Source: Mariprofundus sp. KV (GTDB taxonomy: Bacteria; Pseudomonadota; Zetaproteobacteria; Mariprofundales; Mariprofundaceae). Taken from it: a stretch of 64,000 bases of DNA. The notes beneath the pieces were generated by a model. That model was not told the origin of the DNA, made no database searches, and saw nothing but the letters and a program-made list of their open reading frames with translations. The translations under genes and the position numbers were made by a program. Below are positions 15,302 through 20,104 of this stretch, one piece after another. The stretch is from positions 62,001 to 126,000 of the forward strand of contig NZ_VWNB01000008.1 in the NCBI RefSeq assembly GCF_013387475.1. The letters are read 5' to 3'. Position 1 is the stretch's first letter. The number at the start of each line of letters is the position of its first letter.

Positions 15302-18046
15302 CTAATCGATTCTGTTGAGTGTAACCCAGATCGAGGCGATTTCGCGGGCACGATCCCTGTCTGTGGGGGCTGCAGGAAAGATGCGCTGTTTGCTGATGCC
15401 GCGATGGTTGAGAAAACGCTCGATCAGCATCTGGCTATACTCGATGCGCTGCATTGAATCCCAGTTGAGACTCTCACCACTCCATTTCGGGATTAGATCA
15501 ACAATCAGCGCGGGATCCTCATGCATCTTCTTCAGCACTTTGCGCAGGCGGGTACGCTCATTCAGGGAGAGGTTGCCGGACTCATGCAGTCGAATGCGTG
15601 TTGCCACTTTCGCACCGCGCTGTTCAGGCGCTGCTGAGGCTGCAGCAGGGCGCTGAGCCAACGCCTGCAGCTGCTTCTGCAGTTGCAGGCCAAGGCCCTC
15701 CATGTCGGGTGCTTCACGCTGCCACTCTCCGCCAAGAGGCAACGAGATCGTTATCTCCCGCTCTTCATTCTCCAGTCTGTGAAGCAGATCGATGCTGTTG
15801 TAGCCGACCCGATTGATCATAGGGTCGTTAGCTGTGACAGCATGCTCCAGCTTCACGCGATAGAGCGAAAGCTGCACGTTGCCCAGATACTGCTCTGCAG
15901 ATTCACCCTGCCTGATATTCAGTGAGGCTGAAATTCGCCCCTGAATCGGTTTAGGGAAGCCTGATGCGACCATCCATTCAGAGAGGAAGAAGGGGGTGGC
16001 ATGTTCAAGGGTAATAGTGCCGAGAAACTGTTCGTAACTGGAGAGCGGACTCCACTGGCCATCAAGCTTGAGCAGGCCGCCTCCCATCGCTCCCTGTAGT
16101 GAGAGGACGGAGGGGTTCTGCGGTGAGAGGGTGGTGAGCTGAAGCTCCGCATCTTTGAGCCAGTAGGCGTCTGCTTGTCCGACGCTTACACTTCCACTCT
16201 TCCAGAGAATCTCATCCACCAGCCATTTGCCAGCAGCCAGATTTTCAGCCCACCATGCTTGCTGTCCGGTTGCAGCTTCAGTATCACGCCTGTTTTTCAG
16301 ATAGGGCGGCAGCGGCTGCAGGGGAGCAATATAGTGCCAGTTTTCGGCGACCAGTGATTGTATATGCTGGCTGTCGCTACCTGTGCCGACAGGGCCGAAG
16401 GTGGTTGATATTTTTTCAGCCATCCAGCGGCTGCCGGCATGGGCGAGAATCAGGTTTTCACTGCTGGCGCTGCCATGAAACAGCCAGACGCCACTGTTGA
16501 AAGCAGCCTCGGTAGCGAGGGATGCTGTACCATCAAGCATCAACGGGGCGCTCTCCGAGCCTTTGAGCGGAATCAGTGGGCGCAGTTGGGTTAGCGGAAT
16601 ATGAGCCCCTTTTATCTTCAATTGCGCACGATTGAAGTTGCCATGCTGCCCTTCAATCTCTCCCCTGATCTGCCACTCCGGATCCTCATCCCGGTTCTTC
16701 ATACTCTTGAGTATAATGCTGTTTATACCTGTATTGGAGATTGAACAGCTGCCATTGAGCTCCGAGAGCTGGATGTTTCCTGAATCAAGTGCAAGCAGCA
16801 TACTCAGAGATTCAATCTCAATCGTGTCGATATCGTACTGCCAGGGCTGAGCCAGCACCTGCCTGTCGGCACGACGCTGTAACTGTGGTTGGTAGGAGAT
16901 GAGTGGCTTTGAGAGTTTGATGTCGCGGGCTGCAAATATCTGCCGGGCGGAGTCCAGCCTCATATCGTGATAATCCAGCTTTTCGATGGACCAGTTGCCA
17001 AGGTTCTCATCCGCCAGAGGTGCAAAGGTGAGGTGATCAAGGCTGCCCTGTTGGCTGCTAAAACGGGAGCCTCTCTCATCACGCTGCCAGATCAGTTCAC
17101 CATCGAGTCTTGCGCCGATGAGTTGTCGGTTTGCAATGATCGGGAGGTGGTGGCTCCATGTTTCCAGTTGCCAGCCACCGGTATGTATGGCGATTTTTAA
17201 GCCGCTGTCTGAATGGGTACCCTGCCACTGCAGCTTTGAAGCGTGCAGAGCCTTCTCGTCATGTTGCTGATTCACCCTTAGCTCGCCAAGCAGAGAGATT
17301 GCCGCCGCTTCGCCCGCATCTCTGCGCCACTCCATCTCGCCTGAGAGAAAGCCGGAGCTCGGGCCGGGGTGCGCCGCCCTGGTCAGTTGGGAGAGGTCGA
17401 TATGTCGCCAGCTTACGCTGCCACTCTCTTCTCCGTCGCCCCCTGCCGATCTGAGCCAGCTAGCCTGAACCGGTGCACCGTTGACTCTGGATGTGAGCGT
17501 GATTCTGCGCATCTCACCAAGCGCCTGTTGTGAGAGCTGAAGGTCGGAGAGAATCAGCGGAGGATTGGAATTATCAAGATAAATGGCGAGTTCTCCACCA
17601 TCAATGATCATGGCATGGGTTGCCTGCCAGAGGCGTAGAAGCTGTCTCTCCTGCTGCCAGAGCGAGAGTGTTTCATCGCGATGCAGCTGCGCATGCAGGC
17701 CGGTGATCTGCATGCTGCCGATTTTCGGGTTATCTCCGGTTAGCTGTTGTGGCTCGGCCCGAACAAGCATGTGCTCGATATTAAGCGCATCGCTTCCTCG
17801 TTTGATATTGATCTGACGAAGGATCAGACCGTTGCGCAGCAGGTGGTAGCGCACATCACCAATCTCGACATCAGCACGTTTCGCCCACTTGTAAACAGCC
17901 TCTTCGGCCTGTTCCTGTGCCTGTATCTGCAGAGAGAGGTGCACGGCTACACAGAGCAGTGAGAGAATGGCGATCCATGCAAGATACCAGCGGGCTCCCG
18001 GCGGGAAGATACCTACCGGGTGACGAAACAGGTGTGCTTTTTTCAG
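15302..18046 (-). CDS. AsmA/DUF748-like envelope protein, probable CTG start
   Basis: The protein has one N-terminal membrane helix (LAWIAILSLLCVAVHL, about residues 21-36), then some 750 residues of beta-rich periplasmic sequence, and a C-terminal block RFLNHRGISKQRIFPAAP like the end of DUF748 proteins. Members of the AsmA/TamB superfamily bridge the inner and outer membranes and affect lipid or protein traffic. The first ordinary start in frame is a GTG at 17944, which would remove the membrane anchor. A CTG at 18046 follows GGAGG by four bases and restores it (914 residues). The gene begins 23 bases after acs ends, so they are probably co-transcribed. Confidence 0.75.
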   Translation of the reverse strand: MKKAHLFRHPVGIFPPGARWYLAWIAILSLLCVAVHLSLQIQAQEQAEEAVYKWAKRADVEIGDVRYHLLRNGLILRQINIKRGSDALNIEHMLVRAEPQQLTGDNPKIGSMQITGLHAQLHRDETLSLWQQERQLLRLWQATHAMIIDGGELAIYLDNSNPPLILSDLQLSQQALGEMRRITLTSRVNGAPVQASWLRSAGGDGEESGSVSWRHIDLSQLTRAAHPGPSSGFLSGEMEWRRDAGEAAAISLLGELRVNQQHDEKALHASKLQWQGTHSDSGLKIAIHTGGWQLETWSHHLPIIANRQLIGARLDGELIWQRDERGSRFSSQQGSLDHLTFAPLADENLGNWSIEKLDYHDMRLDSARQIFAARDIKLSKPLISYQPQLQRRADRQVLAQPWQYDIDTIEIESLSMLLALDSGNIQLSELNGSCSISNTGINSIILKSMKNRDEDPEWQIRGEIEGQHGNFNRAQLKIKGAHIPLTQLRPLIPLKGSESAPLMLDGTASLATEAAFNSGVWLFHGSASSENLILAHAGSRWMAEKISTTFGPVGTGSDSQHIQSLVAENWHYIAPLQPLPPYLKNRRDTEAATGQQAWWAENLAAGKWLVDEILWKSGSVSVGQADAYWLKDAELQLTTLSPQNPSVLSLQGAMGGGLLKLDGQWSPLSSYEQFLGTITLEHATPFFLSEWMVASGFPKPIQGRISASLNIRQGESAEQYLGNVQLSLYRVKLEHAVTANDPMINRVGYNSIDLLHRLENEEREITISLPLGGEWQREAPDMEGLGLQLQKQLQALAQRPAAASAAPEQRGAKVATRIRLHESGNLSLNERTRLRKVLKKMHEDPALIVDLIPKWSGESLNWDSMQRIEYSQMLIERFLNHRGISKQRIFPAAPTDRDRAREIASIWVTLNRID

Positions 18047-18069
18047 GTCGCCTCCACGGTCAGTAGCTG

Positions 18070-20016
18070 CTAGAGCCGACTGTTTTGCAACTGCTCTACA
18101 ACTGACTGATCTTCCAGCGTTGAGACATCTGAGGTGATCGGCCGATCAGCAGCGATATCCCTGAGCAGGCGCCGCATGATTTTACCCGAACGTGTTTTCG
18201 GCAGGCTATCGGCAAAACGGATATCATCGGGTTTGGCGATGGCGCCGATCTCTTTGGCGACATGGGCACGCAACTCTGCAGCCAGTGTTTCACTGACTTC
18301 ACATTTGAGTACGACAAAGGCGCAGATCGCCTCGCCTTTGATGGCGTCAGGGCGGCCGACAACGGCTGCTTCAGCAACGGCCTCGTGCGAAACCAGTGCT
18401 GATTCGAGCTCCATCGTGCCAAGTCGGTGACCGGATACATTAAGCACATCATCCACACGACCCATGATCCAGAAATAGCCATCTTCATCACGGCGAGCAC
18501 CATCACCGGCAAAATAGTAGCGACCACCAAAGTTCTTCCAGTAGGTGGCGATATAACGTTTATCATCACCCCAGACGCCGCGCAGCATCGATGGCCATGG
18601 CTTGCGGATCACCAGCAGGCCACCGCCCTCACTAACCGGTTTGCCCTCCTCATCGACCACTGCTGCATCGATACCCGGCAGGGGTTTGGTTGCTGAGCCG
18701 GGTTTGGTCGGAGTGGCAAAGGGCAGCGGAGCGAGCATGTGGCCGCCGGTTTCAGTCTGCCACCAGGTATCGACTATCGGACAGCGCTCTTTACCGATCA
18801 CCTTGTGGTACCACATCCACGCTTCAGGATTGATCGGTTCACCCACTGTGCCGAGCACGCGCAGTTTCGAGAGGTCATGGCTGTTTGGCCATTTGTCACC
18901 GGCCTTGTTCAGGGCGCGAATGGCTGTAGGCGCAGTGTAGAAGATGGTGACGCCATGATCAGCACAGATCTTCCACAGACGACCGGGATCGGGGTAGGTG
19001 GGCACACCCTCATACATCACGGTGGTACCGCCGTTGGCCAGCGGGCCGTAGACAGAGTAGGTGTGGCCGGTAATCCAGCCGACATCGGCGGTACACCAGA
19101 AGAGATCACGCTCAGGCCGGAAGTCGAAGCTCCAGCGCATGGTCAGACGCGCCCAGAGCAGGTAACCGGCCGTAGAGTGCAGGATACCCTTGGGTTTGCC
19201 GGTGGAACCGGAGGTGTAGAGGATAAACAGCGGATGTTCAGAATCCAGCGAGGCCGGTTCGCAATGGCCCGGTTGAACATTGAGGGCGTCATGCCAGTTG
19301 ATGTCACGGCCGGCAGACCAGTTGATCTCGTTGCCGGCGTGGCGAACCACCAGCACATGCGAGATGGTGCGGCAGCCCTCGGAGAGCGCCTCATCAACAT
19401 TGGGTTTGAGGGCGTGGATGCCACCGCGGCGGCCGCCGCCATCAGCGGTAACCACCAGTTTTGCTCCGGCATCTTCGATACGATCACGTAGCGCCTGTGG
19501 AGAGAAGGCACCAAAGACCACCGAGTGCACAGCCCCGATGCGGGTACAGGCGAGCATGGCGATAGCGGCTTCGGCGATCATCGGCATATAGATGATCACC
19601 CGATCACCAGCCCTGATGCCGATCTCTTTCATGGCATTGGCTGCACGGCACACCTCATGCAGCAGCTGCCTGTAACTGTAGTTGCGCACCTCGCCGGCTT
19701 CGGACTCCCAGATGATGGCGGTGCGTTCGCCAAGGCCTGCCTGAACATGGCGATCAAGGCAGTTTTCCGAGAGATTGAGCTTGCCATCCTCAAACCAGCG
19801 GAAGAAGGGGGCATGTTCACTGTTCAGGACGCGGGTGAATGGCTGTTGCCAGCTCAGGTGCTCACGAGCCAGATCACGCCATGTGCTATCCGAATCACTC
19901 TCGAACTGTGCCCGTATGGCCTCATACTCCTGCATCGAAGCAATGTGACCCCGGTGCCCTTGTGGCGGGTTAAATATGCGGGTCTCATCCAGAATAGTAG
20001 TGATCGCTTCAGACAT
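18070..20016 (-). CDS. acs: Acetyl-CoA synthetase
   Basis: Acs makes acetyl-CoA from acetate, ATP and CoA through acetyl-AMP. The AMP-binding signature [11 protein letters not shown] and the C-terminal [12 protein letters not shown], whose lysine is the regulatory acetylation site of the family, are both present. The length (648 residues) is normal. I place the start at the third methionine of the frame (MSEAITT) because GGAGGAG lies a few bases upstream; the longer start at 20034 would put this ribosome site inside the gene. It is divergent from cutA. The intact AsmA-like gene downstream follows by 23 bases. The disrupted neighbour at 14.0 kb is an acetoin/deacetylase relative, which may be coincidence. 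Confidence 0.97.
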
Positions 20017-20104
20017 GGGCTCCTCCATTGGCACTCATTTCTAACAGGCTGAGTATAGCTGGACAACAGGCTTTCGCTGATGTGTGAATAGGTTATTATA
20101 GCGC

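Follow-up and report, generated by a model that had tools for sequence, protein, structure and literature searches.

A CTG codon conserved across Mariprofundus as the probable start of a DUF748-like envelope gene

An envelope gene behind acs

Downstream of acs, on the minus strand of the window (the whole stretch of 64,000 nucleotides that was analysed, from a 2.53-Mb genome of Mariprofundus, a marine iron oxidiser), lies a long gene for a putative envelope protein (Table 1). Twenty-three bases separate the acs stop from a CTG on the same strand and, judging from sequence, we regard it as almost certain that the envelope gene is translated from this codon (18046-18044). Its frame is closed upstream by a TGA (18148-18146), which is followed by 33 codons without ATG, GTG or TTG and then by CTG AAA AAA GCA CAC CTG TTT from 18046. 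An earlier sequence-only reading of this DNA had named the CTG as the probable start, with GGAGG four bases before it and no canonical codon in frame upstream of the GTG at 17944. Codon and box can be read directly, and a search of the window for ATG, GTG or TTG in frame between the TGA and that GTG found none. Translation from the CTG yields (M)KKAHLFRHPVGIFPPGARWYLAWIAILSLLC..., a protein of 914 residues in which a basic N-terminus is followed by a hydrophobic helix.

Table 1. Coordinates of the features discussed (window positions unless a genome and contig are given).
Feature	Position	Strand	Remarks
DUF748/AsmA-like envelope gene	15302..18046	minus	Read from CTG, 914 aa plus stop
Probable CTG start codon	18044..18046	minus	CTG in 23/23 congeners; no canonical start from upstream in-frame stop to codon 35
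GGAGG Shine-Dalgarno-like box	18051..18055	minus	Direct reading; spacer to CTG of four bases (CGAC)
In-frame TGA closing the frame upstream	18146..18148	minus	34 codons before CTG
GTG, first canonical start codon (codon 35), rejected as start	17942..17944	minus	Inside predicted helix; ATC in G010 and ATT in G005 at this place
N-terminal membrane helix (predicted)	17876..18001	minus	AlphaFold model residues 15-56; partly lost with GTG start
acs, acetyl-CoA synthetase	18070..20034	minus	Directly upstream; AMP-binding, AMP-binding_C and ACAS_N Pfam matches
C-terminal OmpA-like domain of envelope protein	15305..15634	minus	VIA-align to 3td3_A
rnpA	G000:C1:104425-104664	minus	Apparent CTG start; L180, set L162-L183
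Sensor kinase gene	near G000:C1 118837	minus	CTG at aligned start; L272, set L271-L291
mnmE	G000:C1:101165-102451	minus	ATT overlaps upstream stop (ATTAA); L200, set L184-L206
DUF748-like gene in genus g9	L064, L067, L071, L074-L077, L081, L084, L086, L087		Loci with apparent ATC start
Initiator tRNA gene, 3' halves	L264 (G000:C24:111948) with L250 (83781); L243 (G012:C1:674581); L262 (G020:C1:247757); L252 (G013:C20:112030)

The product had been called AsmA/DUF748-like in the sequence-only reading. A match to the DUF748 profile (PF05359) is indeed found, but at 37.1 bits it does not reach the gathering score of 50, and we use the label DUF748-like only. Nineteen of the 23 members of the alignment, including that of the window, match PF05359 with an E-value of at most 0.01, the best being 2.5e-20. 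The AlphaFold model (mean pLDDT 83.8, pTM 0.66) places residues 15-56 in a helix, which is followed mostly by strands and finally by an OmpA-like domain that VIA-align superposes on 3td3_A with Z 11.3 over 109 residues at an rmsd of 4.8. The best whole-chain match among the matches listed is the LPD-3 complex, with a Foldseek E-value of 7.4e-13 but a TM of 0.21; we take LPD-3 to be a lipid-transfer protein. A Vps13 fragment also matches the model (Z 8.9). The best 50 matches listed in each of the two structure comparisons include no solved chain of AsmA, YhdP or TamB, which does not argue against a relation to these proteins.

From this model the product is likely to be an inner-membrane-anchored, periplasm-spanning protein of AsmA kind, and both this location and a part in lipid transfer are what the predicted fold would suggest. 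With the AsmA-like proteins YhdP, TamB and YdbH it would share, if the model is right, a membrane anchor and a long beta-strand region, besides a match to the DUF748 profile, whereas it differs from them in that its PF05359 match lies below the cut-off and in its C-terminal OmpA-like domain. The OmpA-like fold could tie the protein to peptidoglycan.

Conservation of the start site in Mariprofundus

Homologues of the envelope gene are present in 63 of the 74 genomes of the family and in all 23 genomes of our Mariprofundus sample, and an alignment-based search of named records gave 29 loci that encode relatives, including those of M. ferrooxydans PV-1, M. micogutta ET2 and M. erugo P3. Read from the CTG, the PV-1 protein would begin (M)NRPHLF. 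The aligned start is CTG in every one of the 23 congeners, which is the outcome in favour of a CTG start of a comparison among close relatives that the sequence-only reading had proposed. Because the same codon stands at the aligned position throughout the genus sample, it is neither a chance occurrence nor an assembly error. In 22 congeners the stretch from the upstream in-frame stop to the CTG contains no ATG, GTG or TTG, and only G003 differs, with a TTG 23 codons upstream; in G009 and G013 a stop codon immediately precedes the CTG. The next canonical codon lies at least 10 codons downstream in 20 of the 23. In the other three it lies no more than five codons downstream (TTG at +1 in G002, ATG at +4 in G005 and TTG at +5 in G012), and a shifted start is thus possible in those genomes. 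As a positive control we used infC, found in 20 of the 23 congeners, where ATT stands at the aligned start in all 20 loci; this control is clean in 16 of them, while G002, G003, G010 and G012 also carry an in-frame TTG shortly upstream.

A leucine codon might be conserved merely as leucine, and for this the other columns of the alignment provide a comparison in the 18 congeners that have a full-length gene (G007 and G017, where the gene runs off the contig, were omitted, as were G009, G013 and G014, where it was matched as two fragments). None of the 64 fully conserved non-tryptophan columns keeps a single codon, and at the 14 conserved leucine columns the share of CTG never rises above 0.83 of the rows. 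Since the start CTG is invariant where no conserved column retains one codon, it is conserved as nucleotides and not as a leucine codon. The gene tree needs a single origin of the CTG (support 89/87), and the presence of this codon in all 23 sampled species of the genus suggests that the weak start is deliberate.

Downstream of the CTG the pattern is that of a coding region. Compared with the nearest relative, G001, codons 2-34 comprise 24 identical, 9 synonymous and no non-synonymous codons, and synonymous changes outnumber non-synonymous ones in 14 of 17 comparisons (the exceptions, as synonymous/non-synonymous, are G005 with 12/13, G022 with 10/11 and G021 with 5/18). Coding constraint is present from codon 2 onward, and these comparisons show the protein reading to begin at the CTG, so far as codon substitution reports it. 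We therefore reject the alternative of an internal ATG or GTG start near codon 35 behind an untranslated region, which is very improbable even though that position provides the first canonical codon in six genomes, namely that of the window together with G001, G003, G004, G017 and G022: codons 2-34 are constrained at the protein level, and the internal codon is not positionally conserved, being ATC in G010 and ATT in G005. Such a start would also split the predicted membrane helix, in keeping with the earlier claim that the anchor is encoded upstream of the first GTG.

When the 23 sites are stacked on the CTG without gaps, G is found at -9 in 22, at -8 in 17 and at -6 in 20 of them, and A at +4 in 22. 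A GGxG box at -9 to -6 is phased to the CTG, and elsewhere upstream the stack carries little information. Against a textbook anti-Shine-Dalgarno tail, the GGAGG of the window has a predicted pairing of -9.7 kcal/mol, and 21 of the 23 congeners reach -5 kcal/mol or better. Compared with shuffles of the same 20 bases, the pairing is only modestly better in single genomes and at many sites no better, the fraction of shuffles that do as well ranging from 0.02 to 0.83. A Shine-Dalgarno box stands in register with the CTG, as would be expected of a gene with a conserved non-canonical start.

The same sites bear on a start by termination and reinitiation, in which the TGA of a mini-cistron overlapping the CTG (as CTGA) would deliver ribosomes to it. 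CTGA is present in 22 of the 23 genomes, and in 12 an in-frame start for such a mini-cistron occurs within 21 bases; in the other 11 there is none, and those present are not mutually aligned. This coupling is not conserved across the 23 congeners, and we reject it as an improbable source of initiation at the CTG.

Start codons elsewhere in the genus and family

Outside Mariprofundus, where start codons were assigned by eye, the genus g9 has a homologue of the envelope gene in 12 of 16 genomes. In 11 of these 12 orthologues the aligned start reads ATC GTA ACN or similar; all 11 are devoid of canonical starts from the upstream in-frame stop to the ATC, and the next such codon lies 6-31 codons downstream. 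Ten of the 11 have a seven-base overlap between the ATC start and the acs stop, and in G080 acs ends 12 bases earlier and the ATC is kept. The twelfth orthologue (G074) has an ATG start, and no acs end was found upstream of it. The g9 gene apparently starts with ATC, a different non-canonical codon for the same gene, as judged from its open frame, and the gene tree is compatible with a single origin of this ATC (support 61/79). For the other 28 homologues outside Mariprofundus, inspection by eye gave ATG, GTG or TTG in 23 and no clear assignment in five.

The 3' end of acs lies upstream of the envelope gene in all 23 congeners, at a spacing of 20-69 nt. Linkage to acs was considered as the determinant of the weak start and rejected: with five rows of ambiguous start set aside, acs is upstream in 34 of 34 cases with non-canonical starts but also in 21 of 24 with canonical ones, and the acs setting alone thus does not demand a weak start. 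The tight spacing, together with the seven-base overlap in 10 of the 11 g9 genomes with ATC, could also be taken to favour read-through or frameshifting from acs into a fusion protein. This is the most improbable of the readings considered, as all 23 congeners have a stop that ends the frame upstream of the CTG, immediately before it in two, and inspection by eye revealed no slippery site common to them.

A more substantial alternative concerns the meaning of the CTG and comes from other genes of the genus. We surveyed stretches of four congeners (155-320 kb each), with 300 ortholog groups in one pass and 463 pairs in another. In thirty-three pairs at least seven codons were conserved ahead of any canonical start without overlapping a neighbouring gene. 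Four groups were convincing by eye, namely the envelope gene, mnmE, rnpA and a sensor kinase gene, and three of the 300 ortholog groups look CTG-started; the survey undercounts such genes, because it detects only those whose next canonical codon is at least seven codons away. The apparent start of rnpA is CTG in 18 of 22 Mariprofundus genomes (GTG in one, TTG in one and ATG in two), and the aligned start of the sensor kinase is CTG in 16 of 21 (TTG in four, ATG in one). Of these 16 kinase genes, four have a canonical codon upstream and only four (G012, G014, G016 and G019) are without one in the first 20 codons downstream; given that most have canonical codons nearby, CTG is forced in few, as in G012, whose open frame has no canonical start among its first 58 codons. 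For mnmE the apparent start is ATT in 15 of 23 genomes and ATG or GTG in eight, and the conservation of this ATT is ambiguous since it overlaps the stop of the upstream gene.

CTG is thus probably not unique to the envelope gene, and on this comparative evidence it may be a minor regular start codon in Mariprofundus. The earlier remark that CTG initiation is rare agrees with the literature on bacteria in general; within this genus the codon is no one-off, being found at the envelope gene of every member sampled and probably at the start of further genes.

These other CTG starts are the strongest argument for the possibility that the CTG is indeed the start but is neutral, a minor regular codon of the genus that the envelope gene has simply inherited. 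The rnpA and kinase genes that lack CTG have TTG, GTG or ATG in its place, and CTG may be merely tolerated there. Moreover, three in 300 ortholog groups is well above the 0.024% of annotated ORFs given for 69 genomes in an extract of PMC9845219, although annotation undercounts such starts. Against neutrality, the start of the envelope gene is the same in all 23 genomes despite their wide divergence at synonymous positions, g9 has an apparent ATC start, and the initiator tRNA is ordinary where it was seen. The absence of changes is, however, only mildly unexpected in view of the turnover in rnpA and the kinase, for each of which we counted about 2-3 changes by eye. On balance we consider neutral inheritance unlikely, yet a serious competitor to selection.

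A relaxed initiator tRNA was examined as a cause of CTG use and rejected on the copies from 16 of the 23 genomes. A search pattern for this tRNA matched 18 of the 23 genomes; the match in G018 is a 3' half only and that in G007 contains no recognisable tRNA. Full-length copies are found in 16 of the 23 genomes, the window's included, and all read GGG-CTCATAA-CCC, an ordinary GGG/CCC anticodon stem. Some 3' halves of the initiator tRNA gene also stand alone, at a distance of about 11-28 kb from intact copies, resembling the attachment sites of integrated elements.

Weak initiation as a possible brake on yield

The explanation that we favour, with moderate confidence, is that the CTG is the start and that its inefficiency has been selected to limit yield. 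Initiator fMet-tRNA, positioned by the Shine-Dalgarno box, would pair with the second and third bases of CUG, and initiation would be inefficient because pairing is confined to these two positions. The envelope gene, 20-69 bases behind the metabolic gene acs, would probably be carried on one message with it, and some brake would then be needed if little of the product is wanted. Selection could have kept the weak start so that a large inner-membrane-anchored protein is made at a low level. That co-transcription, low yield and selection for low yield all apply here is what we infer from the arrangement and conservation of the site, and we consider it fairly probable, from the comparison of these genomes, that the weakness of the start is what selection has kept. 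If so, there is about an even chance that the start responds to IF3, which might repress it as it does the starts of infC and sigR.

A wider form of this explanation is doubtful. CUG would serve as a regular low-yield fourth start codon (in rnpA, the sensor kinase and the envelope gene), and a weak start would have become fixed on at least two occasions within the family, as CUG in Mariprofundus and as AUC in g9, holding the ratio of envelope protein to acetyl-CoA synthetase low and set by the level of IF3. The rnpA gene, which presumably lies behind a ribosomal protein gene, may have the same layout as the envelope gene behind acs.

That the CTG would limit the yield of the envelope protein is an argument by analogy with other initiation systems. 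For example, in CUG initiation complexes with a variant initiator tRNA the first-position bases were too far apart for strong pairing, according to excerpts of PMC11497404, where complexes with wild-type tRNA are also cited as less stable. In part of PMC9845219, no activity could be detected from GUS reporters with CUG, whether in E. coli or in chloroplasts, a result that we count against the favoured explanation.

CUG is regarded as all but absent from the start codons of bacteria. A count over 36 triples of related genomes gave just four switches to CUG among about 69,000 ancestral AUG, GUG and UUG starts, as stated in a portion of PMC5622118, and among the titles and abstracts that a search of open-licence papers listed, none dealt with conservation of a CUG start in AsmA genes or in Mariprofundus. 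The envelope gene is a new case of a known phenomenon, the conserved non-canonical start. What adds interest is that the codon is CUG, that no sampled member of the genus lacks it, and that AUC apparently takes its place in the same gene of g9. The genus-wide CUG and the apparent AUC together offer a natural case for testing selection on weak initiation. Gene callers restricted to ATG, GTG and TTG would misplace the start of this conserved gene and miss its membrane anchor.

Three known systems provide the nearest precedents. In infC, as in the envelope gene, a non-canonical start (ATT, ATC or ATA) is conserved, but infC encodes IF3 and its loop is therefore autoregulatory, whereas no such loop is evident for the envelope gene. 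The sigR gene of Streptomyces, as presented in extracts of PMC5472188, has a GTC start in 32 of 34 species; IF3 represses it, and the balance of SigR and RsrA is disturbed when ATG, GTG or TTG takes its place. Like the envelope gene, sigR combines a non-canonical start that is kept throughout a genus with a strong Shine-Dalgarno box, and sigR had been misannotated to a canonical codon. It differs in that its codon is GTC and not CTG, in that it encodes a sigma factor, and in that repression by IF3 is demonstrated for sigR and would apply here only by analogy. For cvfC1 (AUU) and ccpN (AUA) of Staphylococcus aureus the codons and functions are again different, and their starts were established by ribosome profiling and reporters. 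Nevertheless, they too are conserved non-canonical starts outside infC and they cut yield, S. aureus AUU and AUA starts giving about 10% of the AUG level in poor medium, according to the available sections of PMC13009471.
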